A stretch of DNA of 64,000 nucleotides from Pseudofrankia sp. DC12 (GTDB lineage Bacteria > Actinomycetota > Actinomycetes > Frankiales > Frankiaceae): contig NZ_KQ031391.1 in assembly GCF_000966285.1 (NCBI RefSeq), positions 3,631,208 through 3,695,207 on the forward strand, in the 5' to 3' direction. Below, piece after piece: positions 1,840 to 16,877 of the stretch. The stretch's first letter is position 1. Every line of letters starts with the position of its first letter. The position numbers and the translations under genes were made by a program. A model generated the notes under the pieces. The model was not told the origin of the DNA, did not search any database, and saw nothing but the letters and a program-made list of their open reading frames with translations.

Positions 1840-2665
1840 GTGATGTTTTGGTTGTTCCGTGTCGGGCCCGCTGGTCGGCAGGACCGGTCTCCGCGGCTCC
1901 GGCTTCGCGGCCAGGACGCGGCCGAGAGGGACGCCGAAGACAAGCTGGCGATCGTGCGGGCCGGCCAGCGGCACGTCGGAACGCTCACCGTCAGCCAGTA
2001 CCTGGACGAATGGCTCGCGGGCAAGCGGCGGCTGCGGCCGACCACACGGCGTGGCTACGAGACCGACATCCGCTTGCACCTCAAGCCGCTGATCGGGGCG
2101 GTGCCTCTGTCGGGCCTGGCGCAAGGCCCACATTGACGCCATGATCAGGCGGCTTGAGGACGGCAACGCGACTCGGCGCCGGAAGATCGGGCCCAAGACG
2201 ATCGCGGAGATCTTCGGCACGCTGCGGGCCGCGCTGAACGACGCGGTCGACAACCGGCTGATCTCCTTCAACCCCTGCAACGACGTCGAGCTACCGGAGA
2301 ACGACCGGGCCGAGATCGAGCCGTGGGAAGCCAAGGAGATCGGACGGTTCCTCGACGAGGCCGCGGGCGACCGTCTGTCCGCGCCGTTTGAACTGATCGC
2401 CCTGCACGGGCCGCGTCGGGGCGAGGCCTGCGGGGCGACGTGGGACGGCCTGGACGGCGAGACCGGGGTGCTCACCATCCGGCAGCAGATCACCGACTCC
2501 GGCGGACAGGTCGGTGTGTGGCCGCCGAAGACCAGGTCCGGCAGGCGAAAAGTCGATCTGGACGGCGACACGCTCGGGTCGTTGGCGGCGCATCGCCTGG
2601 CCCAGGACGCGGAGCGCGAGCGGCTCGCAACGGCATGGGACAACGGAACCCTGCCCGATCAGCGG
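1840..2665 (+). pseudogene. Phage-type tyrosine integrase, frameshifted and lacking its C-terminus
   Basis: The N-terminal DNA-binding region is readable in one frame (VSQYLDEWLAGKRRLRPTTRRGYETDI). The protein then continues in another frame from about base 2118 (RKAHIDAMIRRLE) through the first catalytic arginine (HGPRRGEACG) to about DNGTLPDQ. The frame change at about 2118 breaks the gene. Integrase-like sequence stops at about 2660, immediately before the end of jetC, so the HxxR, GH and tyrosine boxes are all missing. The extreme N-terminus also looks disturbed around 1890-1920. Similar missing boxes occur at the far end of the island (30718-30880). Not functional. Confidence 0.85.
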
Positions 2666-5600
2666 TCACACCTGGGGGGTCAGGACGAGGTGCGGCGAGG
2701 TGGTCGCGCGCCGCGTGCCCGGGGAGCCGAGGAGAGCGGTAAGGGTGCCGGTCTCGTCGGCGATCAGCTCGCTGCCGTCCCACACCAGCAGCAGGGCGCT
2801 GACCGTGTGCTGGACGGGGGAGTGCGCGAGGTCGTAGTGCGCGGCGGCGCGGACCGCGGCCGAGGTCGCCCACAGGTCGTAGCCGGTCATGAACAGGTCG
2901 AGGTCGAACTGCGCCGCCAGGGACATGAGCTCGGCGCGGCCGGTGTCGTCCACCCCGGCGAACGCCTCGTCGAGGGCAAGCAGCCGGGGCGCGTCGGGGC
3001 GCGCCGTGTTCAGGGTCGCGTGCGCCGCCGCAAACAGCGGCAGGTGCAGCGACACCGACTGCTCGCCGCCGGACAGCCTGCTGTGCCTGGCCCGGGTCAG
3101 CGTCTCCTCCCCGCCCTCGGGGCTGACCAGATGGAACGAGAACTGCCGCCAGCGCCGGTAGTCCAGCACGGAGGCGAGGAGTTCGCGGTAGGGCTGGTCC
3201 CGGTGGCGCGCCCGCTCGGTCTTGATCCGATCGGCGAAGTGCGCCCGCATCCGGGCGAGCGACTCCGGCGCCAAGCGGGAGGATTCCGTGTCGAGCAGGC
3301 TCACGACCGCCCGCTGCTCGGCATCGAGGGCATCGGACATCTGCCAGCTCACGCCGACCTTCTTGCCCGACGACATCCGCCGCTCGCGCATCTCCCTGTT
3401 CATCGCCCGGATCAGGTCGCGCGCGTCGACGGTGCGGTCGTGGATCTGTTGTGCCAGCCGGGTCAGCAGCGCGTCCTCGAGGATCCGCTGCTCGCTGCCG
3501 GACAGCAGCAGGTGCTGGTCACGGCGCGCGGCGGAGATCCGGTTGGCGAACGCCGCGGCGGGCAGCGGCCCCTGCTCGTCAGCGATCCGCACGACGATCA
3601 CACCGTCCGGGCTGTCCCACTCGGGGTGGTAGTCCTGGCCGGCCGCCGCGAGCTGCGCCTGCAGCTCCTCGAGCGCCCGGGTCAGCCGGGTGGTCGATGC
3701 CTTCTGCGACGTCTCGGTCGCGGACATGCCCCGGGTGGCCGTGAGGATCGCGTCATGGATCGCGAGCGCTGCCGGCGGGGTCTCGCCACGCGTCCACTCA
3801 TCCTCGCTCGCGGGCCACCGCAGCCCAGGCGGGCACGCCAGCACGTCGAGCAGCTCCCGGGCCGCGAACGGAGCCAGCCTCCGGGCGGTGGCGAGCTCCT
3901 CGTCCAGCGCGACGCGCAGCGCTGCCCGGCCCGAGGCGACCCGCTCGGTGGCAGCGGACGCCAGCCGGATCGCCTCCATCTCGGCGCCGCGGGCGGCCTT
4001 CTCCTCGCCCTGCGCGGCGGCCAGCCCGGACTCGGCCTCCGAGACCCGCGCCAGTACCGCCTGAGCCTCGGCGCCGACGGACTCCCGCAGCGCCTGCAGC
4101 TTCGCGTCCTCCTCGGCGTGGCGGCGGTACGCGGAGCGGTGCGTGCTGGCGGCCGCCTGTTCCTCCGCATCGGCGTGCTCGACGCGGTCGCGGGCGTCGG
4201 CGACGGCGTCGGCCTGCCGCCCGCGTTCCCGGTGCCTGGCTTCGAGGTCGCGGGCGGCCGCCTCGAAACGGCGGGTCGCGTCCTCGACCTGGTCGGCGCC
4301 CTCGGGGGTGAGCGCGTTGTCGGCAGCGACCCGGCGCAGGGCGCGCTCGGTCACGGTGACGGCGGCGACGGACTCGTCGAAGCTCGCCCGAGCCTGCTCA
4401 GCGGCGTGCCGGGCGCTGCGCAGGTGCCCGGCGGCCCGGTTGTGCTCCCGCTGGGCGCCGGCGATCTGACCGGTCGCGGGCAGGTCCCTGCGTGCCTCCC
4501 CGAACGCGGCCAGGGTGCCGGCGAGCGCCCGCGCCCGCTCGTCGAGGCCGGCGATCTCGGTGGTCAGCGTGGCGATCCTCGCGTCGCACTCGGCGATCCG
4601 CGCGGCGCGGCGGTGGGCGCGGGCGGTCGCGCCGATGTACTCGGCATGCTCCTTGCGGTGCCACCCGGCGATGATGCCCTGCGAGTAGCGCCCGTCGGCG
4701 CCGGTCACGGCGGCGCTGGAGAACAGGCTCCCGTCGAGCGCGACCGACGCCAGGATGGCGGTGACCAGTCGCCGTGGCACGGGTGTGTCGTCCTCGGGTT
4801 CCAGTACGCCGGTGAGGTTCGGGCCGGCGACGGCCGTCCCGGGGACCAGGTACCCGTCATGGCCGGGCGCGGCCAGCAGGCTGGCGTGGTCGTCCGGCGA
4901 CACCCAGGCGTCGAGCATGCCGCTGGCCTCAAGGGCCGCCTCGATCGCCGCCGCCCGCGTGTCGTCGACGCCGGGCGCGAAGCGGACCAGGCGCCACAGC
5001 GGGGCGCCGGCGACATCCGTGCGGTCCGCGGTCCGTCCGGGATACCGCGGCGGGGCGTCATCTCGCTCGGCGGCGATGGCAGCCCGGTCGGCGGTCACGG
5101 CCTTCCGCTCTGCGGCGAGGGCGGTGTGCTGGGCGCGCAGTGCCGCCTGCTCGTCGCGGACCTGGTGTTCCGCCGGGGCAGTCCCGGCGTTGTACGTGCT
5201 CTCCGGCAGCGCCGCGCCCGGCTCGCCGAACAGGGTCAGCGCGTCGCCCAGCGCCTCGGTGAGGTCCGCCCAGTTGTGCGTGGGCAACAGCCCGGAGTGC
5301 CGGGACGACCAGGCGGCCAGGGCCTGCCCGGCGGCCTCGACGGCGCTGGCGACCGCGCCGTCGGCGGCCTGCTCGGCCTGCTCGGCGTCGGTGCGGGCCT
5401 GGGCTGCGCGGTCAAGGGCGATCCGGGCGAGGTCACGGGCCTGCTCGGCCTTGCGATGCTCGGCGTCGGGCGCGCGGACGGCCCGGACGTTCTCGAGGCG
5501 GACGGCAGCGCGGGCGCTGGCCCGCCGTACCACTCCGGCCGCCTCGGCGTCGGCAGCCTGCCACTCGATCCCCGCCCGCGCCGCATGGTCGAGGAGCTCC

Positions 5601-6748
5601 GCCGCGGCGCGGGTCGCCGCCGCGGAGAGGTCGGCGAGCTCGGTGCCCGCCCGCTCGGCCTCGGACCGCGCGCGGGCGGTTGCCGCCTGGCGGCGGCCCA
5701 GCTCGGCCCTCGTCTCGTTGGCGGTCTGCAGGCAGGTGCGGACCAGGCGTTCCAGGTCGCCCATCTGCTCGACCGCCTGGTAGGCGCTGCTCGCCCTGAG
5801 CTGCTCGATCCGGCCGCGCAGCCCGGCGACGGCCGTCTCGGCCTGCTCGCGGCGGTCCTCGGCGACCCGCTGCCCGTCGTGCGCGGCCCGCTCGGCCTCC
5901 TCGTCCGCCGCGGCCGCGGCGCGGTGGGCCTGCGTCGCCTCGCGTCGGCGGGTCAGCGCGTCGGCGGCGGCGCGGGCGTGGGTGCGCAGGTAGGTCGTGT
6001 AGCTGGCGAGGAACGCGGCAGTCGCCTCGTCGGTGGCCACCAGGCCCTCCAGGGTGCGGGTGACCGCCTCCATATCGTCGAAGCTGCGCGCCGCCTCGTT
6101 GATGAGGTCGTCGCCGACGGGCCGCAGGCCGTCGGTCAGCGTGTCCGACAGCCTGACCGGGTCGAGGTTCTTGGCGAGCTGCGGCCTGCGCAGCGTGAGG
6201 ATCAGGGTGACCAGCTGCTCGTAGCGCTCGGCGCCGAGCTCGAAGAGCCGGGCGTCGATCGCGGCCCGGTACTCTGTCGCCGAGGCGTGAATGTTCGCGT
6301 CGCCGATCTCCTCGGCGAGCTGCTTGCGCGTCATCGGCCGGTCGTCGTCGGTGAGCAGCGAGAAGTCCTCGCCGACCCGGCCGTCGGCGACGAAGTGCCA
6401 GCGCACCGGCGTGTCCCGGTGCCGCTGGGCGTGCAGCCCGATGCCGACGGTCACCGCCTGTCTCGTGTCGCGGTGGCGGAACTCGAGCCAGACGTAGCCG
6501 ACCGCGTTGTCCATGCCCCGGTACAGCAGGTTGGACTTCATCGTCCGGTCCTCGGCGGCGAACGGGTTGAGCCGCTTCGGGTCGATCCGGCCGTCGAGGA
6601 CGAAGGGGAAGAGGACTTCGAGGGCCTTGGTCTTGCCGGACCCGTTCGGCCCGCGCAAAACCAGCCAGCCGTGGGCGAACGAGAACTCCTCGTCCCGGTA
6701 GTCCCACATGTTGATGATCCCGGCCCGGGTGGGCTCGTACCTGGTCAC
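2666..6748 (-). CDS. jetC: Wadjet type II SMC-like ATPase JetC (TIGR02680 family)
   Basis: This 1360-residue SMC/SbcC-type ATPase belongs to the TIGR02680 family. A Walker A box (GPNGSGKT) lies at residues 33-40. Alanine- and glutamate-rich coiled-coil segments fill the middle. An ABC signature (LSGGEQ) at about residue 1225 and a Walker B box (LLALDEAFAG) at about 1256-1265 complete the ATPase. In Wadjet, JetA, JetB and JetC form a condensin-like complex that extrudes loops on small circular DNA, and JetD cuts it. The GTG start overlaps the jetB stop by 4 bases (GTGA). Length and motifs look complete. The gene that should follow, jetD, is absent: the stop codon abuts a truncated integrase gene. 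Confidence 0.92.
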   Translation of the reverse strand: MTRYEPTRAGIINMWDYRDEEFSFAHGWLVLRGPNGSGKTKALEVLFPFVLDGRIDPKRLNPFAAEDRTMKSNLLYRGMDNAVGYVWLEFRHRDTRQAVTVGIGLHAQRHRDTPVRWHFVADGRVGEDFSLLTDDDRPMTRKQLAEEIGDANIHASATEYRAAIDARLFELGAERYEQLVTLILTLRRPQLAKNLDPVRLSDTLTDGLRPVGDDLINEAARSFDDMEAVTRTLEGLVATDEATAAFLASYTTYLRTHARAAADALTRRREATQAHRAAAAADEEAERAAHDGQRVAEDRREQAETAVAGLRGRIEQLRASSAYQAVEQMGDLERLVRTCLQTANETRAELGRRQAATARARSEAERAGTELADLSAAATRAAAELLDHAARAGIEWQAADAEAAGVVRRASARAAVRLENVRAVRAPDAEHRKAEQARDLARIALDRAAQARTDAEQAEQAADGAVASAVEAAGQALAAWSSRHSGLLPTHNWADLTEALGDALTLFGEPGAALPESTYNAGTAPAEHQVRDEQAALRAQHTALAAERKAVTADRAAIAAERDDAPPRYPGRTADRTDVAGAPLWRLVRFAPGVDDTRAAAIEAALEASGMLDAWVSPDDHASLLAAPGHDGYLVPGTAVAGPNLTGVLEPEDDTPVPRRLVTAILASVALDGSLFSSAAVTGADGRYSQGIIAGWHRKEHAEYIGATARAHRRAARIAECDARIATLTTEIAGLDERARALAGTLAAFGEARRDLPATGQIAGAQREHNRAAGHLRSARHAAEQARASFDESVAAVTVTERALRRVAADNALTPEGADQVEDATRRFEAAARDLEARHRERGRQADAVADARDRVEHADAEEQAAASTHRSAYRRHAEEDAKLQALRESVGAEAQAVLARVSEAESGLAAAQGEEKAARGAEMEAIRLASAATERVASGRAALRVALDEELATARRLAPFAARELLDVLACPPGLRWPASEDEWTRGETPPAALAIHDAILTATRGMSATETSQKASTTRLTRALEELQAQLAAAGQDYHPEWDSPDGVIVVRIADEQGPLPAAAFANRISAARRDQHLLLSGSEQRILEDALLTRLAQQIHDRTVDARDLIRAMNREMRERRMSSGKKVGVSWQMSDALDAEQRAVVSLLDTESSRLAPESLARMRAHFADRIKTERARHRDQPYRELLASVLDYRRWRQFSFHLVSPEGGEETLTRARHSRLSGGEQSVSLHLPLFAAAHATLNTARPDAPRLLALDEAFAGVDDTGRAELMSLAAQFDLDLFMTGYDLWATSAAVRAAAHYDLAHSPVQHTVSALLLVWDGSELIADETGTLTALLGSPGTRRATTSPHLVLTPQV

Positions 6749-8175
6749 TTGGTCGTTTCCTTGAGCTGGGCCGTGACGCCCCGGTAGCGGGCGAGCAGGG
6801 GCAGGATGAGGGCGCCGCCGTCGGTACGGGCCACGAAGCCCACGCTGGCGAGCAGGTTCAGGGCGTCGTCGAGGAGACTGGCCGGATCGGCGATCTGGCG
6901 CTCGGACATGCCGCTGCCGAACTCCTCGACCAGCTTCGTGAGCTCCGCCCGCAGCCAGGAGTCGCTGAGGAACGGATAGGTGGCCTCGCGACCGGCTGCC
7001 TTCGTCGCCTCGGCCGCCACGTCACCAGAAGGCAGAGCGTCACCCGAAGGCAGCGCGCCGCCGGGCGTCGCTGCGGCACTGGGCTGCCCGGCGCCGTCGG
7101 TCGCTGCGGCGTCGGCGGCGTCCGCGAGCAGGGCGGTGACACCGGAGCGCGCGGGCAGCGCCGCGTCGATGCGGGCGGCAGCGTCGGCGAGCCGCTCGGC
7201 GGCCGTGGCGGCGGGCAGCTTCTCGACGCGGTGCGGGCTGAACGTCAGGTAGCCGGCGATCCGGGCGCACAGCAGCAGCGCCGCCTGGGCGACCGTGCCG
7301 GTGCCGGGGAACGTGATGTCGGTGAGTCGGCCGCCCGTGTTGATCAGCGCGACTCCCTCGGCGCGGCGCTCCAGCGGCAGCCCGGTGAGGCGTTCCAGGT
7401 CCTCGGCGAGAGCAGGGGCCCGCAGCTGGCCGCGCAGGCCCTCGTCCACGTCCGCGTAGTAGACGACGGGCTGTTCCAGGGCGAGGCGGCGGGCCCGGCG
7501 GCCGGTGCGTCGGCGCTCGGCGTTGATGCCCTGCGCCGGGCCCGCGCTCGCGGCGTCGCCGAGAAGGCCGGTCACCGAGTTCAGGTGCTGCAGGACACGG
7601 CTCGGGGCGTAGACCGCCCCGGTGATCTCCCGGTCGATGTCGTAGAGCGCCTCGGCGCGTTCGGGGTCGTTGACCCAGTCCACAGCGCTGCCGTCGGCCA
7701 TGCGCAGCGCGCCCCGCGTCTCGAGCCACGCGACCGCGTCCACGAAGGCGTCCCGGTCGGGCTTCCGCGCATTGTCCATGCCGAGGCCGTCGACCCGTCC
7801 GGCCTCGGCGGCCACCGCGTCGGCGAGTTCGGACAGGGCGATCTGGGTGCCGGCGCGGCCCAGCACCGACAGAGCGAGCACAAGGTAGGCGTAGCGGCGG
7901 CGGTCGAAGGGCTTCCTCGCCCGGGTGAACGCCGGGTGCGTCGCGTCGAGGGTGTCCTGGACGCGGCGCAGCCGGACCGTGTCGCCGTCGCTGACCAGGG
8001 TGTACCCGAGCGTCTCGGCGAGGTCCACGCGCAGCTGCGATGCCCACTTGCGGACCAGCGGAAGTGCGGTCCTGTCCGGGTAGGACGCCGTGATGAGCGG
8101 ATGGCGCAGCACCTGACGGGCGGCCTGCTGGTACTCGTCGAGATCCAGGGCGCTGACGTTCTGAGCGACCCTCAC
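6745..8175 (-). CDS. jetB: Wadjet type II JetB (DUF2398, TIGR02678 family)
   Basis: This 476-residue protein lies between jetA and jetC. Segments such as RKPFDRRRYAYLVLAL and a long helical C-terminal region match the DUF2398/TIGR02678 family, the kite-like or MukE-like partner of the JetC ATPase. The start is the GTG at 8173-8175, which overlaps the jetA stop as GTGA; the open frame runs further upstream only as a shadow of jetA. A low-complexity stretch with a repeated PSGDALPSGD lies at about residues 360-400 and is probably a linker. The stop overlaps the jetC start. Tight overlaps on both sides indicate one transcript and translational coupling. Confidence 0.9.
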   Translation of the reverse strand: MRVAQNVSALDLDEYQQAARQVLRHPLITASYPDRTALPLVRKWASQLRVDLAETLGYTLVSDGDTVRLRRVQDTLDATHPAFTRARKPFDRRRYAYLVLALSVLGRAGTQIALSELADAVAAEAGRVDGLGMDNARKPDRDAFVDAVAWLETRGALRMADGSAVDWVNDPERAEALYDIDREITGAVYAPSRVLQHLNSVTGLLGDAASAGPAQGINAERRRTGRRARRLALEQPVVYYADVDEGLRGQLRAPALAEDLERLTGLPLERRAEGVALINTGGRLTDITFPGTGTVAQAALLLCARIAGYLTFSPHRVEKLPAATAAERLADAAARIDAALPARSGVTALLADAADAAATDGAGQPSAAATPGGALPSGDALPSGDVAAEATKAAGREATYPFLSDSWLRAELTKLVEEFGSGMSERQIADPASLLDDALNLLASVGFVARTDGGALILPLLARYRGVTAQLKETTK

Positions 8176-9791
8176 GCCGGGACCGCCGCCGCAGGCGCGA
8201 CCAGCCCCGAGCCGGCGCTCCTGACCTCGATCGCCAGCCCGTCGAGGTGCAGCCTGCCGCGGACCGTCCGCACGGTCGTGACGCCTGGCCCGGGGCGCAG
8301 CGTGAGGCGCACGCCGTCGGAGGAGCCGGTGGCGACCGGGCCGGGGCCGGAGCCGACGGTCCGGCTGACCGGGACCCGGGCGACCAGGGCGATGCTGAGC
8401 AGGCCGAGCAGGGCCTCGGTCTCCGCCTCGTCGAGGACGCGGTCGTGGACGCCGTTGCCGGCGAGCCGCGCCATCGCGGAACGGCGCTGCGTGGTGGCCT
8501 TGAGCTGCTCGGCGCGCAGCCACTCCTTCGCCGCCTCGTCGCGCTGGAGCCGGCCGGGGCCCTGCAGCCCGGCTCTGCGGCCGACCCGCACGAGGGTGCG
8601 TGAGAGTGCCACCGGCTCGGCCTCCCACCAGGACTGCCTGCTGGGGATCAGCTCGGGGTCCTCGTAGCCGGCCGCGACGTGCCGCGGCCCGCCGAGACCG
8701 AAGACCGCCTGGTACAGCGCATGCGCGTCGGTGTCGGCGGGCAGGCTGGCGAACCACTGCGCGAGGTGGCGCAGCTGGCTCTCGCGGCTGACGCCGCCCC
8801 TCCTCGACTCCGTCACCCGCCGCAGCAGGGCGGTGACGTTGGCGATGGCAGTGATCGTCGCGTCCTGTAGCCGGTCCGCCTCGCTGGCCCGCTGTGCTCC
8901 CCCCTGGGAGGTGCCGAACCACTGGACAAGGCCGGCCCAGCGCCGTCGCCACTCCGCCGTCCCGTCGCGGGAGCGGAAGAGGGAGTCGTCGGCCTCGGCG
9001 GCCAGCGCCGCGACCCGGTCCGGGCCCTCGGCGCCCACCGCCTCGACCGCGTCGGCGAGCAGCGGCGCGTATCTGCTGAGCTCGGAATGGAACTCGCGCA
9101 TATGGGCGAGCAGGGCGTCCTTGTGCGCGAGGAAGACCTCGGGGCGTGTGTCGTTCGTCCGCGACAGGTCGCCGAGCATCAGGTAGAATCGGGCGGCGCG
9201 CTGCGCCATGTCCGCGAGGACGCCGTCGAGGCGGGACAGCTTGCGGTACACCTCTGGCGCGTCGCCCTCGCGCACCGCCTCGGCGAGCGCCTGCAGGTCC
9301 GCCAGGATATCGGGGAAGACCAGCCGCGACAGCTGCGCGTCCTCCAGGCTGGCGGACAGCACGTCCTCCACCGCCCGGTAGGCGCGGTAGCCCGCCTGGG
9401 TGAACTGGTAGACGTAGTGCCGGTTGCGGTACTCGGCCAGGTTCGCGGCCCGGGTGCCGTCATAGGAGCGGTCGAGGACCTTCCAGTCGGCGAGCGAGTC
9501 CAGCAGGGACTGGACGTCGGGCACCCGCGCGTCCGGGCGCTCCTCGGCCAGGGCGTCGAGCGCCGCCTGGGCATCGGCAACGTGTACCAGCACCTGGTAG
9601 TCGGCGCGTGCCCGGTCGAGGGCACGCATCAGCCACAGGTATTCGTGGCGCTTCTCGGTGGCGGCGAAGTGGAACAGGCGCAGGCGGTCGTCGGCGGTGA
9701 ACGCCGCGATACCGAAGGCGCCGCCCGGCACGCCCGGCGCGGGAATGCCACCCGGCGTGGCCAGTGAGTCCTGGGCGCTTGTCGTTGTCAT
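8172..9791 (-). CDS. jetA: Wadjet type II JetA (DUF2397, TIGR02677 family)
   Basis: This 539-residue protein of the DUF2397/TIGR02677 family is the kleisin-like (MukF-like) subunit of Wadjet type II. The region FHFAATEKRHEYLWLMRAL followed by VQSLLDSLADWKVLDR is the winged-helix-like N-terminal part of the family. Long helices and a C-terminal part ending AGSGLVAPAAAVPA follow. The ATG at 9791 is preferred over a TTG at 9833, which would add a non-family leader. It lies 62 bases after the helicase stop and overlaps jetB by 4 bases, so it is the first of three coupled jet genes. It probably shares a transcript with the upstream helicase. Confidence 0.88.
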   Translation of the reverse strand: MTTTSAQDSLATPGGIPAPGVPGGAFGIAAFTADDRLRLFHFAATEKRHEYLWLMRALDRARADYQVLVHVADAQAALDALAEERPDARVPDVQSLLDSLADWKVLDRSYDGTRAANLAEYRNRHYVYQFTQAGYRAYRAVEDVLSASLEDAQLSRLVFPDILADLQALAEAVREGDAPEVYRKLSRLDGVLADMAQRAARFYLMLGDLSRTNDTRPEVFLAHKDALLAHMREFHSELSRYAPLLADAVEAVGAEGPDRVAALAAEADDSLFRSRDGTAEWRRRWAGLVQWFGTSQGGAQRASEADRLQDATITAIANVTALLRRVTESRRGGVSRESQLRHLAQWFASLPADTDAHALYQAVFGLGGPRHVAAGYEDPELIPSRQSWWEAEPVALSRTLVRVGRRAGLQGPGRLQRDEAAKEWLRAEQLKATTQRRSAMARLAGNGVHDRVLDEAETEALLGLLSIALVARVPVSRTVGSGPGPVATGSSDGVRLTLRPGPGVTTVRTVRGRLHLDGLAIEVRSAGSGLVAPAAAVPA

Positions 9792-9853
9792 GGGTTTCGG
9801 TATCCCAGCGAATACGCGGTCGGAATGGCTCAAGACGGTGCTCGGTATGCTGC

Positions 9854-12800
9854 TCAGTCATCTCGGTCATCGTCGGCGTGCAGTCCGGACAACGACCGGA
9901 GAATTGCCAGGGCCGCGCCGCGTGACAGATCTTCATGGTAGCGCTCGTTGCCGGCGGTCCGTAGGCAGCCGTAACAGGATGTCTCGAGGCCACAGTCACA
10001 CGCGCTTACCCGCCGCAGAGCGGAGTCGACGACGATATCCAGCGACGCGGCGATACGCGCCGCGCTGCCCGCCCCGCCGGGGACGGTGTCGAACAGCACC
10101 AGACCACTGCGTCCGTCGGCACCCGCGTGCACGACGCCGTCGATGTCGCTCCGGCCGATCTCCAGGCCCTCGGCGCAGCCTTCCAGCAACGCGTAGAGCA
10201 GCGAGTGCCACCGCGCCCGCTCGTCGGTGCCGGAGCCGGTGGCGCCCAGACCGGGCGCGTCGACCTGGACGCGCAGGATGTCGGTCTCGTAGGTGTGCGC
10301 CAGCGACCGCCAGCGCAGCGGGCCGGTACACGGCTTGCCGCGCAGCGGGTTGATGTGCGACTTGGGTGCGCGGCCGTGGTTGGCGCCGCCCCAGCCGCAC
10401 CAGTCGCAGAGCAGGAAGCCCGCGCCGCCCGGCCCTTCGGACAGCGACACGAGCCGGCCCCGCGTGCCGCTGTGGCACCAGGCCATCGCGCCGTCCGCCG
10501 ACCGCCAGCGGCTCTCGCTGAGCTCCGCACCGAGGGACACCACGTGGACGCCGCCGTTCCAGACGCGCAGCGGCGGGGCGGTGCCCGGCTTGGCTGTGCG
10601 CGGGTCGGCCACGAAGCCGAACTCGGGCACGCAGTACTCCCGCACCGGCCCGTCGGCAGGCCGCCCGCAGGCCGTGCACGCCGGTTCGAGGTCGTCGCCG
10701 CCCTCGCGGTAGTGCTGGCAGCCGCGGCAGACCGTGTAGGAACGGGTGATGAGCTCCCGGCCGGGCAGCCGGTAGATCCCGGCGCTGCGCCACAGCACGC
10801 CGCCGGCGACCAGCTCGGAGCCGGGCGCGTACTCGTGGATCGCCATCGCCAGGTCACGGGTCAGTTCGAGGCGCGCCCCCACCTGGGAGTCGCAGTGCGC
10901 CGTACGCAGCTCGACGGTGTCGACCGGGAACCCGTACTTGGGCAGGATGTTGCGGTTGGCGAGGAACCCGATCAGCGACCGCCGGGTGATCGTGTTGATG
11001 GACCGCTCGAACCGGGCGGCCAGGTCGCTGCGCCGGGACTCGAACGCCTCCTTGCGCCGCTCCTCGAACAGGGCGACGTCCTGGGCGAGCTCGGCGCGGA
11101 CCGCCGCCAGCAGCGCGTCGAGCTGGTCCACCCAGGCGCCGGAGTCGAGGCCGATCTGCTCGTGGACGGACTTGGGCAGGACCGCCCTCAGCGCGGCGTC
11201 GACATCGTCCGGTACCGGCGTCAGGAAGCCGCGGACCAGCTGTGACGGCGCGGAGAGCGGGCCCGGCCGGCCGGTAGCCCCGCCCCGCTCGCCGAGGAAG
11301 AAGGCACCCGCGGTCTTCCATTCCTGGCCGGCGTCCTCCTTCGCGTCGCGGAAGAACGCCGCGAGCGCCACCGAGTGCGCGTGGCGCCGGTCGATCCTCG
11401 GGTTCCCGAGCGGCACGTAGGGGGCGCGGACCTGGCCGGTCAGCATCGTCTCGGGCGCGGCGTAGCGGGACAGGTCGTGGGAGCGGCGCTGCGCGTAGGT
11501 CAGCACGAGGGCCGGCGAGCCCGCGCGGCGGCCCGCCCGCCCGGCCCGCTGGATGTAGCTCGCCGTGGTGGGCGGCATGTTGCGCAGCAGCACGGCGTTC
11601 AGCGCGCCGACGTCCACGCCGAGCTCGAAGGTCGTGGAGCAGGACAGCACGTTCACCTCCCCGGCCAGGAAACGCTGCTGGATGTCGGCCGCCTCCAGCC
11701 CGGTCCACTGGGCGGTGTGCTCGCGGGCGGTCAGGGAGACCGGCGCGGTGCGCTGGTAGAGCGCCCGGTAGTGCTCGTCGTCGTTGTCGGTGGCGGCGGT
11801 CACCGGCGCCAGCCGGCCGGCGCAGCGCAGTGTCGGGCAGACGCCGCGCACGGACACGGAGACCCGGCGGCGGCACACGTCGCACTGGTGCAGGTCCCCT
11901 GCGCCGCCCGGCGCGAGCGTCAGCCAGGTGTGGTCGACCTGGTAGACCTGGCCGGCCTTCGGCAGCGCCGCTCCGGCGAGCCAACCGCCCCGGACGGCGG
12001 TCAGCGCCCGCCAGCAGCCGGCCAGCGTCTCCCGCGGGTCGGCACCGCCCGCGCCGAGCACGCGGCGAACGTAGTCCAGGCGCCTGTTGACACCGCGGGT
12101 CGGCAGCCAGCTGAGCACCTTGAGCTTCGCCTCGGCGCCGTCGACGCGGACGTAGATCGGTCCCCGGCGCGGGTCGAACATCTCGTCCGCCGGGTCGACC
12201 TCTTCCGGCATCGACAGCGCGCCCTGCAGCCGCAGCGTCCGCGCGAGCTCGCCGAGCAGCAGCCAGCACTCGTCGGCGGTGAGGCCGAGCGCGAGCAGCG
12301 GGGCCGGCGCCCGCCACGCCGGGTCGACGTCGAGGGCGACACGCAGCAGGCCAAGACCTTCCAGCGACTGCCTCTCGTCGAGGGCGATCAGTTCGCGCGC
12401 CACCCAGCGGGCGGTCTCCCGCCGGCGTGCCTGCCGGGACTCGCGGCGCCCGAACACCCCGGCGGCCCCGGCCTCGGCGGCCACCGCCTCGATCAGGTCG
12501 TCCACGGAGCACGAGGGGTCGGACGCGGTCGCCCGGGCCAGCCCGTCGAGGATCAGGCGGCGCTGCTGTACCAGCGCGTGGCTGGACTCGAGATACGGCG
12601 CGAAGAACGCGGCCGCCTGCCTGCTGTCGCTGAACGCCAGCAGCTTGCGGCCGCCTCCTGGCCGCCCGGCGAACTCGTCGTCGGCGGGCAGCGCCTGGTA
12701 GAGAGCCGTCGCGAGGACGGCGGCGGAGGCCTCGTTGCCGCTCTCGAACAGCCGGATCATGCCGGTGCCGCGCGCGCCGCACGACAGGCAGCCACGCGGC

Positions 12801-14527
12801 GTCCCGGACCGGCCCGGCAGCCGGCGCACCGCACGCAGGTACGCGGCGGAACATCCGCACGGGGCGACGGCGCCTGTCGCGGTGGGCGCGTGCAGCGCGC
12901 CGCACCTGCCGCACAGCAGCGCGTCCTTCGCGTCCTTCGCGTCCTTCGCGTCCTTCGCGTCCTTGGCGTCCTGCTCGGCGGTCTCCTCGAACGCGGCGTC
13001 GTCCTCGTCGGCCCCCTGCGCCGCGTCCTCGGGCTGCGCCGCGCCCCGCGGCCGCGGCGTGTCTCCGAGGACGAGCCAGGCGCGTCGGTCGCCACGCGCG
13101 ACCCGGGAGGTGAAGTACTCCCCGGATCTCTCCTTGCGGATGACGCCGGTGAGATGCACAGCGCCGCACCGCTTGCAGCACCCGAACTCGAACACCGCGG
13201 CCGAGCAGTCGGGGCAGACCTCGCGCCGGGCCAGTGCGACGTGCGGCCCGCCCCCGCTCCCGGCGTCACCCGCGAGGCAGGTGAACGCGCCCTCGGTGGC
13301 GCGGGCGAACAGGTGGTAGCGCGCGGACAGCACCGGCGCGCCCGAGGCGTCCCGGGTCGCCGTGCCGAGCGCGACCAGTTCCGCCAGCCGGGCCCCGGAG
13401 ATCCCCGCGGCCGCGGCCAGATCGGTGGACAGGCGCGGCCCGCCGGCGAGGAGCGCGCGGACCTGGCCGAGGCCGGCGGCGTCGTCCAGCCCCAGGCCGG
13501 GGGCGTCCCGGACCGGGCCGTCCGGCGCCGTCACCCGGGTGGCCTGGACAAGGTCCTGGCGGGTCGGGTTGCCGGGGCTCCACTCGAACGGGGCGTCGAA
13601 CAGCTTCGCGGCGAACTCCATGACGGCCGCCGGGCTGTCGCCGACCGTGGCGGACGTCGCGATGGCCTGCAGCGAGCGGGCGGAGTCCGCTCCCTGGAAG
13701 AAGACCTTCTGCTTGAGCCGGCGCAGCAGCATGCCGACTTCCTCGGCCTTCGCCCCGTCGTAGACGTGCGCCTCGTCCAGCACGACGAAACGCCAGTGCC
13801 CGCCGTGCGGCCCCTCGAACAGGTCCATGTCCGCGGGGCGCAGAAGCAGGTACTCGAGCATCGCGTAGTTGGTCAGCAACAGATGCGGCGGGCTGTCGCG
13901 CATCTCGGCCCGGGAGAGCAGCTCGTTCGGGAGCCTGGCCTCGCCCGGGTTCAGGGCCTCGAACAGGGAGGCGCCCTCGGCGGGCCGCTCCGGTGTCTCC
14001 CCGGTGTACCGGCCGAACGTGATCTCGGGTGTGCCCGCGAGCACCTGCCGCAGGCGGCGCACCTGGTCGTTGGCCAGGGCGTTCATCGGGTACAGCAGCA
14101 GCGCCCGGACCCCTGGGCCCAGCGTCCCGGCTTCCCGCTGTCGGACGAGCTCGGAGAGGACCGGCAGCAGGAAGCTCTCCGTCTTGCCCGACCCGGTCCC
14201 GGTCGCGACGACGAGGTTGCGGCCCGCGGCGGCCTTGCGGATCGCCATTTCCTGGTGCGCGTACAGCGGCCGGTCCAGCGGCAGCGCGGGCCCGCCTAGC
14301 CGGGCGAACCCGCTGGGCAGGACACCGTCGGCGATCAGCTGCCGCAGGCTGGCGCCCGCCGCGTACGGCGGTGTCGCCTCGAGCACCGGCCCCTTGGTCA
14401 GCAGCGGGCTGGCGTCGATCGCGTCCCGCAGCGCCCGCGCGAGCTTCGGGTCGCGCACCGGCAGCAGCGACCGCAGGTAGCGGCGGTACGTCAGGCTGAG
14501 GTGCTCGGCGGTGGCGATCACGTCCAT
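9854..14527 (-). CDS. DEAD/DEAH-box helicase with C-terminal DUF1998-like zinc domain
   Basis: This 1557-residue superfamily 2 helicase has Walker A at about 109-117 (ATGTGSGKT), a DEAH box at about 251-254 and motif VI (YIQRAGRAGRR) in the second RecA domain. Between the two RecA domains are several CxxC pairs flanking a run of Ala-Lys-Asp repeats. The C-terminus contains a four-cysteine cluster (CDCGLETSCYGC) after DTVPGGAGSA, characteristic of DUF1998/MrfA-like modules. Helicases of this architecture occur in Druantia (DruE) and in MrfA repair; DISARM carries helicase and DUF1998 on separate proteins. The ATG at 14527 follows the upstream gene by 77 bases. It sits directly before the jet genes, so a joint defence role is likely but inferred. 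Confidence 0.85.
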   Translation of the reverse strand: MDVIATAEHLSLTYRRYLRSLLPVRDPKLARALRDAIDASPLLTKGPVLEATPPYAAGASLRQLIADGVLPSGFARLGGPALPLDRPLYAHQEMAIRKAAAGRNLVVATGTGSGKTESFLLPVLSELVRQREAGTLGPGVRALLLYPMNALANDQVRRLRQVLAGTPEITFGRYTGETPERPAEGASLFEALNPGEARLPNELLSRAEMRDSPPHLLLTNYAMLEYLLLRPADMDLFEGPHGGHWRFVVLDEAHVYDGAKAEEVGMLLRRLKQKVFFQGADSARSLQAIATSATVGDSPAAVMEFAAKLFDAPFEWSPGNPTRQDLVQATRVTAPDGPVRDAPGLGLDDAAGLGQVRALLAGGPRLSTDLAAAAGISGARLAELVALGTATRDASGAPVLSARYHLFARATEGAFTCLAGDAGSGGGPHVALARREVCPDCSAAVFEFGCCKRCGAVHLTGVIRKERSGEYFTSRVARGDRRAWLVLGDTPRPRGAAQPEDAAQGADEDDAAFEETAEQDAKDAKDAKDAKDAKDALLCGRCGALHAPTATGAVAPCGCSAAYLRAVRRLPGRSGTPRGCLSCGARGTGMIRLFESGNEASAAVLATALYQALPADDEFAGRPGGGRKLLAFSDSRQAAAFFAPYLESSHALVQQRRLILDGLARATASDPSCSVDDLIEAVAAEAGAAGVFGRRESRQARRRETARWVARELIALDERQSLEGLGLLRVALDVDPAWRAPAPLLALGLTADECWLLLGELARTLRLQGALSMPEEVDPADEMFDPRRGPIYVRVDGAEAKLKVLSWLPTRGVNRRLDYVRRVLGAGGADPRETLAGCWRALTAVRGGWLAGAALPKAGQVYQVDHTWLTLAPGGAGDLHQCDVCRRRVSVSVRGVCPTLRCAGRLAPVTAATDNDDEHYRALYQRTAPVSLTAREHTAQWTGLEAADIQQRFLAGEVNVLSCSTTFELGVDVGALNAVLLRNMPPTTASYIQRAGRAGRRAGSPALVLTYAQRRSHDLSRYAAPETMLTGQVRAPYVPLGNPRIDRRHAHSVALAAFFRDAKEDAGQEWKTAGAFFLGERGGATGRPGPLSAPSQLVRGFLTPVPDDVDAALRAVLPKSVHEQIGLDSGAWVDQLDALLAAVRAELAQDVALFEERRKEAFESRRSDLAARFERSINTITRRSLIGFLANRNILPKYGFPVDTVELRTAHCDSQVGARLELTRDLAMAIHEYAPGSELVAGGVLWRSAGIYRLPGRELITRSYTVCRGCQHYREGGDDLEPACTACGRPADGPVREYCVPEFGFVADPRTAKPGTAPPLRVWNGGVHVVSLGAELSESRWRSADGAMAWCHSGTRGRLVSLSEGPGGAGFLLCDWCGWGGANHGRAPKSHINPLRGKPCTGPLRWRSLAHTYETDILRVQVDAPGLGATGSGTDERARWHSLLYALLEGCAEGLEIGRSDIDGVVHAGADGRSGLVLFDTVPGGAGSAARIAASLDIVVDSALRRVSACDCGLETSCYGCLRTAGNERYHEDLSRGAALAILRSLSGLHADDDRDD
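12921..12974. repeat. Six tandem 9-bp units inside the helicase gene
   Basis: The unit gcgtccttc is repeated four times exactly, followed by two variant units. On the coding strand it encodes an Ala-Lys-Asp run between two zinc-ribbon-like cysteine clusters. The unit is a multiple of three, so copy-number changes keep the frame and would only change linker length. Confidence 0.9.
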
Positions 14528-14604
14528 CGCTGAAGGATCTCGCGTCGGGATTTCCCGCTGTTCGGGGCCCTCGCGGGTGGCCCGCGCGAGGGGGAGGCGC
14601 GGTG

Positions 14605-16248
14605 TCAGGCCCGTGTGACCGTCCACGGATCATTGGCCGGGCCGGCGCCGGTCACGGTGGCGAACGTCACGACGGTTCCGTCGTCGACGGTGATGGTGAG
14701 CTCGGTGTCGCCGTGGACGGCCGCCGTGTCCAGGATGCGGCGCAGCGGGTAGCGGCCGTCGCGCAGCGCCCCCAGGACCTGGACGGGTTCTCCGCCCGCC
14801 ATGACCGTGATCGCCGGTGGCGTGGCGGCGCCCGGCAGGTCGATGCGCAGCAGGCCCCCGCGCCACAGGTCGTCGTGGGTGAGGCGCAGCGGGCCCGTGT
14901 GGTGCCACCCGGTCCCCTCGGCGCCGCTGCCCGGTTCGGGATCGATCCGCAGCCGCAGGTGCGGCGGGGTCACGGCCAGGCGCTGGACCACCGCGCCGGC
15001 GACGCAGGTGACCTCCCGCGTCACCGTCTCCTCCTGGTACGCGGCCGCGGCCGGGGAGACCGTCATGCCCGGCGGGGCCGAGATCACCGCCTCCGCGGGC
15101 TGGAGCCCCCTGGCGCTGGTGAGCCGAGGGGCCGGGTACGAGGTGACGCCCAGGCCCTCCGCGAGCACCACGGTGCGGCGCAGCCCGGGGATCACAGAGA
15201 TCACGAGCTCGCCGAGCAATGGCCGCCGCACACCGCGCCACAGGACGTCCGGTCGCCACGTGTCACCGGTCGTCGTGACACTCGCGAGGGCGGCCCCGGA
15301 GTCCGTCCGCCGCGCCTCGACCCGGAAGGTGGCCTGACCGGGTGGGAGCAGAACCTCGGGGGGCGAGGTGAGGACGGGCCTGCCGGCGGCGGTCGTGACG
15401 CCGGGGATCGGCGGGCCCGTGCGCAGCACCGGCCTGGTCCGGCCGCGCACGAGGCGACGGCTGTCTTCGGCATCGGCATTGTCGCCGAGGGCGATCCAAC
15501 AAGCCCCCCGCAGGTCCACCTGGATGAGGCGCCAGCCACGCCAGGCCAGCGGGAGCGTGCTCGTCACGAGGGTCCGAACCGGCATGTCGGAGCGCAGTTC
15601 GGCGCCCGCCGGGCAGAGCACCCAGACGGCGTCGGCGGGCAGCGCCCCGTCCACGAGTGCCCCGTCCTCGTCGAAGGCCAGCAACGTGGCGCCCTCGGCG
15701 GTGATCTCCTCCGGCAGCGCCGCGCGGGCCTGTCCCGATACGCCGTCCGTCAGGAGGACCCCGCCGCCGAACGGGTCAAGGCGCGCCTGGCCCACCCCGT
15801 CGGAGCGGTCGCCCTCGGAACCGGCGTGGTCCTCCGGCGTGGTCGCATGGGCGAGCACGGCCACCTCCGCGGTGGGCTCGGCAGGCAGTCCCAGCGCCCC
15901 GAGCGCCGCGAGGAACGCGTCGCCCCACTCACGGGCGGACCGCGCACTTGACCGCAGCCCAGCGGCCCGGTGCCAGGCAGGCCAGAACGCCGTCGGGTCG
16001 GACCCGGCCGCGGCGCGGGCGATCCCGACGACGACGCAGGCCGGCCACCTCCGCGCCACCCCGCCGGCCCTCAGAGCCCGGGACTGTGCTCCCAGCGCCG
16101 TGGCCACCGCCTGCGCGAGCCCAGGCTCTGCCTCAAGCCGCCCGGCGACGGCACCCGCCCGGAGCTCTCGTCGCCAGCCGGACTCGAGCAGGTCGAGCAG
16201 CCTGTCACCGGCGATGGTGCCGCTGATGGCTCTACCTTCACTGGGCAC
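14605..16248 (-). CDS. Unknown protein paired with the defence helicase
   Basis: No family was recognised. The GTG at 16248 is chosen because GGAGG lies 7 bases upstream; the frame extends further but without a ribosome site. The 547-residue protein has a helical N-terminal third (DRLLDLLESGWRREL onward) with a WPAWHRAAG motif. A long C-terminal half is rich in predicted beta strands, with repeated Leu/Val-Thr patterns and Gly/Pro turns. No signal peptide, membrane helix or metal motif is visible. It is the first gene of the helicase-jetABC group, 77 bases before the helicase start. By position it could be the substrate-recognition or partner protein of the helicase, comparable in arrangement to two-gene helicase defence systems. 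That role is inference only. Confidence 0.6.
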   Translation of the reverse strand: MPSEGRAISGTIAGDRLLDLLESGWRRELRAGAVAGRLEAEPGLAQAVATALGAQSRALRAGGVARRWPACVVVGIARAAAGSDPTAFWPAWHRAAGLRSSARSAREWGDAFLAALGALGLPAEPTAEVAVLAHATTPEDHAGSEGDRSDGVGQARLDPFGGGVLLTDGVSGQARAALPEEITAEGATLLAFDEDGALVDGALPADAVWVLCPAGAELRSDMPVRTLVTSTLPLAWRGWRLIQVDLRGACWIALGDNADAEDSRRLVRGRTRPVLRTGPPIPGVTTAAGRPVLTSPPEVLLPPGQATFRVEARRTDSGAALASVTTTGDTWRPDVLWRGVRRPLLGELVISVIPGLRRTVVLAEGLGVTSYPAPRLTSARGLQPAEAVISAPPGMTVSPAAAAYQEETVTREVTCVAGAVVQRLAVTPPHLRLRIDPEPGSGAEGTGWHHTGPLRLTHDDLWRGGLLRIDLPGAATPPAITVMAGGEPVQVLGALRDGRYPLRRILDTAAVHGDTELTITVDDGTVVTFATVTGAGPANDPWTVTRA

Positions 16249-16268
16249 GAGGGCCTCCGAGGAATCGC

Positions 16269-16877
16269 TTGCGCTGTTTGTCCCGCGAGGACTGGCATGA
16301 GACGGCGTCCTCGAAGGCCTCCGGCGCAGACCTGACGCCCACGAGGGTGACACGCTGGCCGTTCGTGGACGCGCTGGCCGCCGTGCCCTGCGAGGAGATC
16401 GTCGCCTTCGCCCGCTCCGCGGACCACGGCTGGCCGGAGAGGTTCGCGAACAAGGCCAGCACCGCGCGGACGGACCGCCGGCTGACTGCCCGCCCGGAAC
16501 TCGGGCCGGTGCTCCACCCGGACGACGTCATGGCCGGCAAGGTCGACGCGCTGTGCAACCGTGCCGCCGCCCGCGACTTCCTGGACGTCGACGCCGCGAT
16601 CAGCGGCGGGCATTACACCCTGGATCGCCTGTGCGAGATCGCTCATGAGGCTGACCCCGGGTTTGACCGTCGGAAGTTCGCGGCCATGCTCGGGTTGATC
16701 GGCCGGCTCGATGACCACGACGATTTCGCCGTCTACGGTGTGACTCCCGACTACCTGACCGGCCTGCGGCAGCGAGTCGCGGACTGGCGTGTTCGCTCAC
16801 CAGCGACTGACCAGGACTTGGCCGACCGACCGCCCCGGTGGGCGGCGGTGCGGACCATCAGTAGCCATTGGCGCTGA
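16269..16877 (+). pseudogene. AbiEii-like nucleotidyltransferase toxin, N-terminally degraded
   Basis: The C-terminal two-thirds (from about TARPELGPVLHPDDVMAGKVDAL through ARDFLDVDAAI to DYLTGLRQRVADW) match the AbiEii/AbiGii-type nucleotidyltransferase toxins of type IV toxin-antitoxin systems. The expected N-terminal catalytic region with a G-S and paired-aspartate motif is not present in any frame here. The residues ahead of the match look unrelated. It is therefore probably a remnant. A second, independently truncated copy of the same C-terminus lies at 23051-23320, suggesting that both island segments once carried related cargo. Confidence 0.65.

Follow-up and report, generated by a model that had tools for sequence, protein, structure and literature searches.

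The DNA analysed here, referred to as the window, is a stretch of 64,000 nucleotides (nt) from Pseudofrankia sp. DC12 (Frankiaceae; contig NZ_KQ031391.1, positions 3,631,208 to 3,695,207), whose minus strand carries at 2666-16353 five consecutive open reading frames (ORFs): a protein that we call U, a DruE-family helicase, and the Wadjet proteins JetA, JetB and JetC. The initial annotation had described five co-directional genes with short gaps, and the ORF calls bear this out: all lie on the minus strand, with 77 nt between the U and helicase genes, 62 nt between the helicase gene and jetA, a 4-nt GTGA overlap in which the GTG start of jetB lies over the stop of jetA, and a further 4-nt overlap between jetB and jetC. 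A scan for terminators inside the unit found none and a promoter scan gave one promoter-like match, on the opposite strand; both scans used consensus sites only, which is weak evidence in high-GC Actinomycetota.

The three distal genes encode type II Wadjet proteins. JetA (8172-9791), the kleisin (DUF2397, TIGR02677), scored 531 bits in PADLOC and 209 bits with TIGR02677; JetB (6745-8175), the KITE protein (DUF2398, TIGR02678), scored 525 and 142 bits, and JetC (2666-6748), the SMC ATPase (TIGR02680), 1274 and 752 bits. All three exceed the NCBIfam cut-offs, so that a Wadjet type II JetABC is present in one operon, and the Walker A, signature and Walker B motifs of the window JetC are all intact. 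Upstream, the helicase gene (9854-14527) encodes a superfamily 2 (SF2) protein of 1557 amino acids (aa) of the DruE/YprA family, with the Pfam domains DEAD and Helicase_C, an MrfA-type Zn domain (MZB, DUF1998) and intact motifs GTGSGKT, DEAH, SAT and QRAGRAGR. Its best PADLOC match is DruE (535 bits) and its best PDB sequence match is 9tu7, a 2108-aa helicase (E 7e-77), which we take to be the DruE of PMC13192584. No nuclease domain was recognised in the window helicase by Pfam or PADLOC; the protein ends shortly past MZB and has no PLD HxK motif. A short KDA repeat lies in the helicase frame between CxxC motifs (12911-12970, minus strand).

U (14605-16353) measures 582 aa from the first GTG and about 558 aa from 16281; the initial annotation gave 547 aa. 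It gave no Pfam, NCBIfam or PADLOC match at E 0.01, no Pfam or PADLOC match at E 5, and nothing up to E 1 in a PDB sequence search. The product of this first gene had been called beta-rich in the initial annotation; an AlphaFold2 model of U alone from seven rows has a helical N-terminus and a beta-rich remainder, at low confidence (mean pLDDT 58). Foldseek of this model against the PDB gave no match at E 0.001 or better, with immunoglobulin-like (Ig-like) multidomain proteins among the weak top rows.

Occurrence of the unit and of its separate halves

A scan of genome contigs with the helicase gave eight loci. Three of these, in Parafrankia soli (L012), Frankia nepalensis (L013) and Frankia sp. 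CIT1 (L015), hold all five genes in the same order, and no JetD lies in the sequence that follows jetC there (0.4 kb in L012, up to the contig end, and 2.8 kb each in L013 and L015; 3.6 kb and 5.6 kb are visible at the same places in L021 and L022, respectively). Because gene order and JetD absence are repeated in three more Frankiaceae, the arrangement in the window is not chance or a sequencing accident. Two loci from metagenome-assembled genomes (MAGs; L014 and L016) hold U, helicase, JetA and JetB, with the contig ending inside JetC, and JetA of L014 is spread over two frames. The contigs of L017 and L018 end inside the helicase gene; helicase identity for the MAGs is 72-83%. The eighth locus, in Frankia sp. 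CiP1 (genome G027; L019, identical with L007), has an internal deletion that fuses residue 360 of the helicase to residue 1324 of JetC, a natural near-knockout of the unit.

The DNA of the five-gene block is collinear and 94-97% identical between the window and L012, L013 (in two pieces) and L015. The shared DNA begins near the start of U, and outside the block the flanks of these four copies are unrelated save for short repeats. A form with JetD also exists: in L114 (genome G545) a single strand encodes all six of U, helicase, JetA, JetB, JetC and JetD, and L107 (G473) has the same six genes, its JetD running into the contig end. Taken together, U, helicase and JetABC lie on one strand in eight genomes (the window, L012, L013, L015, L014, L016, L107 and L114), and the stable link of a helicase and partner with JetABC that the initial annotation envisaged is upheld.

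With U as query, 6 of the 35 genomes of the family match, including one long U without Jet genes and one remnant. A seven-row profile of U matched 3 of 396 phylum genomes, one of them marginally and empty on inspection (G302), and a broader eight-row profile matched 19 of 364 class genomes and 4 of 361 phylum genomes. Eighteen of the 19 class matches were examined, the marginal G684 being left out. Jet genes lie directly downstream of U and helicase in six (the window, G030, G026, G020, G473 and G545), another is the remnant of G027, and in the other 11 the helicase is present without co-directional Jet genes in the fetched stretch (one of them, G011, is decayed). Over all loci, eight carry Jet genes and 14 do not (L020, L027, L104, L105, L106, L108-L113, L115, L128 and L129), besides two cut by contig ends (L017, L018) and one deleted; these tallies are not frequencies, several loci having come via close helicase relatives. 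The two upstream genes were found neither almost always apart from jet genes nor invariably with a complete jetABCD behind its own promoter, the two outcomes that would have refuted the proposed link. In L020 (255-18636), one of the Jet-free loci, a long U shares its run of genes with two DruE-like helicases and a protein that looks UvrD-like by eye.

No relative of U was found among the viral contigs searched, nor among plasmids searched with two long U proteins. Searched against plasmids, the helicase matched 214 records, but coverage reached 80% in none of them; identity is 28-34% in the 30 that were listed. Four of these regions were opened: one holds an E. coli pair annotated like Druantia III, one adjoins DruA, and two, from the cyanobacterial plasmids AP018224.1 and AP018241.1, have a coiled-coil ATPase gene upstream of the helicase. 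In these last two (L065, 4161-14357; L068, 3528-14366) the DruE-like helicase follows a gene annotated as chromosome segregation ATPase-like, which has weak JetC/LmuB model matches in L068 (best E 6e-8) and none in L065; they are perhaps another coiled-coil/DruE pairing.

Stand-alone Jet loci served as controls. JetA2 matched 28 of the 35 genomes of the order, from which 31 further JetA regions were fetched and profile-scanned, three of them cut or fragmentary and not judged (L046, L063, L064). JetD is present in all 28 assessable loci, and neither helicase nor U was found by the profile scan in any of the 31 fetched stretches; the sequence before the first Jet gene spans 2.5 kb or more in 23 of the 28, the contig ending sooner in L037, L043, L051, L053 and L059. 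The nearest JetC proteins outside the unit come from seven Streptomyces plasmids (60-62% identity), and the four of these Jet sets that were opened (L029-L032) have JetD and no helicase. Across the phylum, JetA matched at least 33 and JetD at least 36 of 396 genomes (24 of the latter above the family cut-off), misses being possible as three or four candidates were scored per genome; for 21 of the JetA matches, the coordinates listed place a JetD match no more than 10 kb away on the same contig. Ten phylum regions were fetched, chosen as JetA matches without nearby JetD plus two with. JetD is present in L079 and L083; L076, L077, L078, L080, L081 and L082 end at a contig edge; and in L074 (2375-9705) and L075 (2713-10204) JetABC is complete with neither JetD nor a helicase, each set being a neighbour of metH (read by eye). 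A third such set, in L130 (5271-12765), is about 5 kb away from a Druantia-like pair (L113) and has the opposite orientation. Since JetABC without JetD occurs in L074, L075 and L130 without an operonic helicase, JetD loss is not tied to such a helicase.

JetD was not found in the 18.9 kb downstream of jetC in the window genome, whose single JetD (TIGR02679) lies 2.06 Mb away within a separate complete JetABCD with a JetC 33% identical to that of the window. A search for JetD remnants with JetD proteins (tblastn against the window, L012, L013, L015, L021 and L022) stayed at chance level among the matches listed, the best of which (E 0.005) is in the window, distant from the cassette. Of the four JetD-less genomes, G020 and G026 (completeness 96 and 100) gave no TIGR02679 match in the whole genome; G030 has one JetD, with no JetABC in the 20 kb fetched around it. 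In the MAG genomes of L014 and L016, JetD genes occur with no JetABC close by, and their identity to the L114 JetD is 46-48%. JetD genes without an intact JetABC nearby lie at 10496-11905 of L124, 8096-9388 of L125, 40-1431 of L126 and 13881-15380 of L127, all in genomes with the unit or part of it, and that of L127 stands behind a shrunken JetA-JetB-JetC remnant.

At the place of jetD in relatives, the window has a truncated, frame-broken tyrosine integrase gene (1840-2665, plus strand), not part of the system, which abuts the jetC stop; a scan of nine ORFs at the left edge did not find an integrase C-terminal half. What starts about 90 bp past jetC in L012 is instead a gene that looks TnpB-like by eye. 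At its left edge, facing the start of U, the shared block has a fragment of an AbiEii-like toxin gene (16377-16874, plus strand; Pfam E 2.8e-4, marginally below the curated cut-off), probably not part of the system; inspection by eye shows a stretch resembling it in L012 too. The idea of a discrete transposon with its end exactly at jetC was dropped, as the end of the shared block differs between genome pairs: 3-4 bp past the jetC stop for the window and L012, about 18 bp for L013 and L015, and about 41 bp for L013 and G027. This variation indicates that the sharp end is partly a product of later insertions.

Relation of U to DruH and history of the unit

The relatives of U that are not linked to Jet genes are long, with open frames of about 1100-1270 aa, and are paired with a helicase. 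Measured from the end of the profile (with L017 and L018 counted as probably linked and the window itself not included), U extends a further 2-10 aa in eight of the nine linked or probably linked loci (L012-L018 and L114) and 112 aa in L107, and 219-493 aa in all 11 unlinked forms measured. Aligned with the 1114-residue U of L110, the short U of L016 and L114 ends at about residue 780 when the final residues are matched to the DPW motif, and near residue 707 by the profile; stray end residues spoiled the joint alignment for the window, L018 and L107, and L016, L114 and the profile end were used. Judged from these alignments, the Jet-linked U is a form without about the C-terminal third of its long relatives, and the loss of roughly this last third is the feature that accompanies the Jet link.

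Profile comparison (hhalign) of 11 long U forms with six proteobacterial DruH proteins gave E 8e-5 over 492 collinear columns. Among controls, the best of 30 column shuffles reached 0.22, reversed sequences 0.66 and 0.67, and five decoy families 0.3-0.95, and dropping any long U form left E at 5e-4 or better. Since long U pairs with a helicase without Jet genes and matches DruH by profile, the pair looks Druantia III-like; U would accordingly be called DruH-like, short of proven DruH. The L110 pair, with overlapping frames of 1114 and 1675 aa, may be set beside MSMEG_1253/1254 of M. smegmatis, a DruH of 1132 aa and a DruE of 1667 aa with a 17-bp overlap, genes said to be highly conserved in Actinobacteria (PMC13316683). 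Most defence was lost in the DruH mutants E842A, R864/865A, E1096/1099A, D1108A, D240A and R536A and not in E998A (PMC13316683); by position, with the numbering mapped approximately, E842, R864/865, E1096/1099, D1108 and E998 would lie beyond the end of the short U. In E. coli DruH, the N-terminal part has three Ig-like domains that are proposed to sense phage; the C-terminal part is in contact with ATP in the dimer, and the nuclease activity is suspected to reside there (PMC13192584). U is also the fastest-evolving gene of the unit (ratio of nonsynonymous to synonymous substitution rates, dN/dS, 0.38-0.73 in the four complete copies), and DruH is reported to evolve faster than DruE (PMC13192584).

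In quick trees made without bootstrap, the ten Jet-linked or probably linked helicases form one clade (SH-aLRT 92), with the helicase of L104, a long-U locus, as its sister (support 100). This nearest Jet-free relative has a 4.6-kb stretch (6976-11584) between its long U and helicase. In the JetABC tree, the window, L012, L013, L015, L016 and L014 form a clade, L107 and L114 another, and these two together with four Streptomyces plasmid sets a clade of 12 rows, each with support 100; the tool warned of several long branches that meet elsewhere in this tree. No internal stop occurs in any gene of the four complete copies (the window, L012, L013 and L015), and JetC has 1360 codons in the window, L012 and L013 and 1363 in L015. 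Among these copies dN/dS is 0.19-0.26 for the helicase, 0.17-0.40 for JetA, 0.25-0.66 for JetB and 0.32-0.40 for JetC, compared with 0.07-0.25, 0.13-0.34 and 0.20-0.33 for JetA, JetB and JetC of nine JetD-bearing pairs. The genes of the unit are still under constraint: dN/dS is raised yet below 1 in every gene, the low dS making the ratios noisy.

Competing explanations and a possible mechanism

We give about even credence to a composite operon, in which a Druantia type III-like module, consisting of the short DruH-like U and the DruE-like helicase, would be joined to the type II Wadjet motor JetABC. It rests on an order and orientation conserved in eight genomes, a single clade of Jet-linked helicases, a shortened U in the loci with JetABC, a JetD that two relatives keep and four Frankiaceae copies lack, and genes that are still intact and constrained. 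A DruH-DruE pair would have become linked to a JetABCD set, DruH would have lost its C-terminal part, which studied DruH proteins need for function, and the Frankia lineage would afterwards have lost JetD. In Wadjet, JetABC extrudes DNA and completed extrusion triggers JetD (PMC10586767, PMC12647877). DruE loads onto 3' single strands and then unwinds (PMC13192584); DruH and DruE of M. smegmatis interact and block circularisation and replication of phage DNA (PMC13316683), though no stable DruH-DruE complex was observed in E. coli (PMC13192584). In the action that we propose, the Ig-like part of U would sense infection, JetABC would capture and reel in invading DNA as in Wadjet, and the DruE helicase would load on exposed 3' single strands of the captured DNA and unwind them; the three activities would be coupled, and JetABC would do duty for the part that DruH has lost. 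JetD would do the cutting in the form that keeps it; in the JetD-less form of the window, circularisation or replication would be blocked and any degradation would fall to host nucleases. A bolder proposal, which we put forward tentatively and think rather unlikely, is that JetABC replaced the C-terminal effector of DruH, coupling an Ig-like sensor and DruE to a loop-extruding SMC complex, and that the JetD-less Frankia form is an immune machine of SMC complex and helicase, free of any nuclease, in which extrusion and unwinding are what arrests foreign DNA.

Several observations weigh against the composite operon. Among the loci found, U/helicase pairs without co-directional Jet genes outnumber the Jet-linked ones (14 against 8), and in G027 most of the cassette is gone. 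The match to DruH depends on the rows used: dropping one DruH row weakens E to 0.015-0.28 (a different MAFFT mode served for the rebuilt alignments), and the match to DruH became significant only with 11 long forms, the short U giving none by itself or together with just two of them. The dN/dS values of JetA, JetB and JetC in the unit lie somewhat above those of the JetD-bearing pairs. The JetABC tree gives no branch order among the two helicase-bearing Jet groups and the Streptomyces JetABCD sets, so that one joining, two joinings or loss of the helicase are all compatible with it; a single joining of the modules with later loss of JetD in the Frankia line would be the simplest account of the gene content, not the sole one.

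The two halves could instead be independent systems, a Druantia III-like pair and a Wadjet set, that sit side by side in a defence island and hitchhike together. The 14 U/helicase loci without co-directional Jet genes and the 28 of 28 stand-alone Jet loci of the order with JetD and without helicase in the fetched stretch do show that each half exists alone, and in L113/L130 about 5 kb separate a Druantia-like pair from an unrelated JetABC of opposite orientation. Mere proximity, however, sits poorly with an order and strand fixed in eight genomes, a spacing of 62 nt between helicase and JetA in the window, flanks that are unrelated, a single helicase clade and a shortening of U confined to the Jet-linked clade, and we consider this explanation unlikely, if a serious contender. 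A decaying remnant that has lost JetD, with JetABC drifting and little or no protection left in Frankia, would fit the absence of JetD from all four complete Frankiaceae copies, the mostly deleted G027 copy, the raised dN/dS and the split JetA of L014. It appears improbable given frames free of internal stops, a JetC held at 1360-1363 codons, the catalytic motifs kept in the window and dN/dS below 1 throughout. We give little credence to a JetD serving the cassette in trans, for which the complete JetABCD elsewhere in the window genome, the JetD of G030 and those of the L014 and L016 MAG genomes are candidates: G020 and G026, nearly complete or complete and without any TIGR02679 match, mean that supply in trans cannot be general, and the 33% identity of the other JetC makes cross-service in the window genome doubtful.

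The initial annotation had suggested that the helicase module might replace JetD, and this part of it was not supported. Such a role for the pair as cutter would agree with JetD being missing, among the Jet loci of the order, exactly in the helicase-bearing copies, and with the nuclease activity described for E. coli DruE and DruH (PMC13192584). It is nevertheless very improbable: L114 and L107 hold both helicase and JetD, the window helicase lacks a nuclease family match and the PLD motif, U lacks the C-terminal region that the E. coli authors suspect of nuclease function, and L074, L075 and L130 are JetD-less without an operonic helicase. Hardly credible, finally, is a JetABC that has turned into a condensin for organising the chromosome, a role suggested for Pseudomonas aeruginosa MksBEF, with the helicase aiding repair. 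The JetD-less L074 and L075 do share a metH neighbourhood, but the cassette is sporadic (6 of 35 family genomes match U, counting the long U without Jet genes and the remnant) and linked to a defence helicase, and in the window and L012 it lies beside mobile-element debris.

The putative composite operon, a five-gene mixture of two immune systems, is apparently undescribed: no prior description of a joint Druantia-Wadjet operon was found in the titles and abstract starts of the open-licence literature, supplements not covered, and the main texts of PMC12458937, PMC13192584 and PMC13316683 mention neither Wadjet nor SMC, PMC12458937 also not Jet. Structures of Wadjet and Druantia III are being solved, and the literature examined treats each apart. 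A natural operon with a short DruH, with or without JetD, would offer a direct test of the role of the DruH C-terminus, and would test whether DruE works on SMC-extruded DNA and whether an SMC motor defends without a dedicated nuclease. It is also a warning for annotation tools, whose likely output here is one incomplete Wadjet and one incomplete Druantia.

Comparison with known systems

DISARM consists of a separate DrmA helicase, the DUF1998 protein DrmB, a methylase and DrmC, in contrast to the window, where helicase and MZB are one protein and neither methylase nor DrmC is among the five genes. We know of no DruE or DruH partner of MksBEF, from which the JetABC of the window differs in standing in an operon with a defence helicase. 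Type II Wadjet is closer: JetA, JetB and JetC match its PADLOC and NCBIfam models, and the Jet sets most closely related to them outside the unit come from Streptomyces plasmids (about 61% JetC identity). The differences are the missing JetD in the window and three further Frankiaceae and the co-directional helicase and DruH-like genes upstream.

For the upstream pair, the nearest likeness is to Druantia type III, the DruH-DruE system of M. smegmatis and E. coli, with which it shares a DruE-family helicase directly preceded by a beta-rich partner. The SF2 motifs and MZB/DUF1998 domain of DruE are present in the window, and the long U relatives and their helicases are sized like the M. smegmatis pair (1132 and 1667 aa; PMC13316683). 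The C-terminal PLD nuclease of E. coli-type DruE is absent from the window helicase, which in this resembles, by description, the Druantia III-like branch of YprA helicases, most often without any nuclease domain (PMC12458937, Bell et al.). The unit departs from Druantia type III in its short U, from which the C-terminal part of full-length DruH is absent, including the region that by position would contain four defence-impairing mutations of the seven published for DruH (PMC13316683), and in the Jet genes that follow the helicase, three or four across the forms of the unit.

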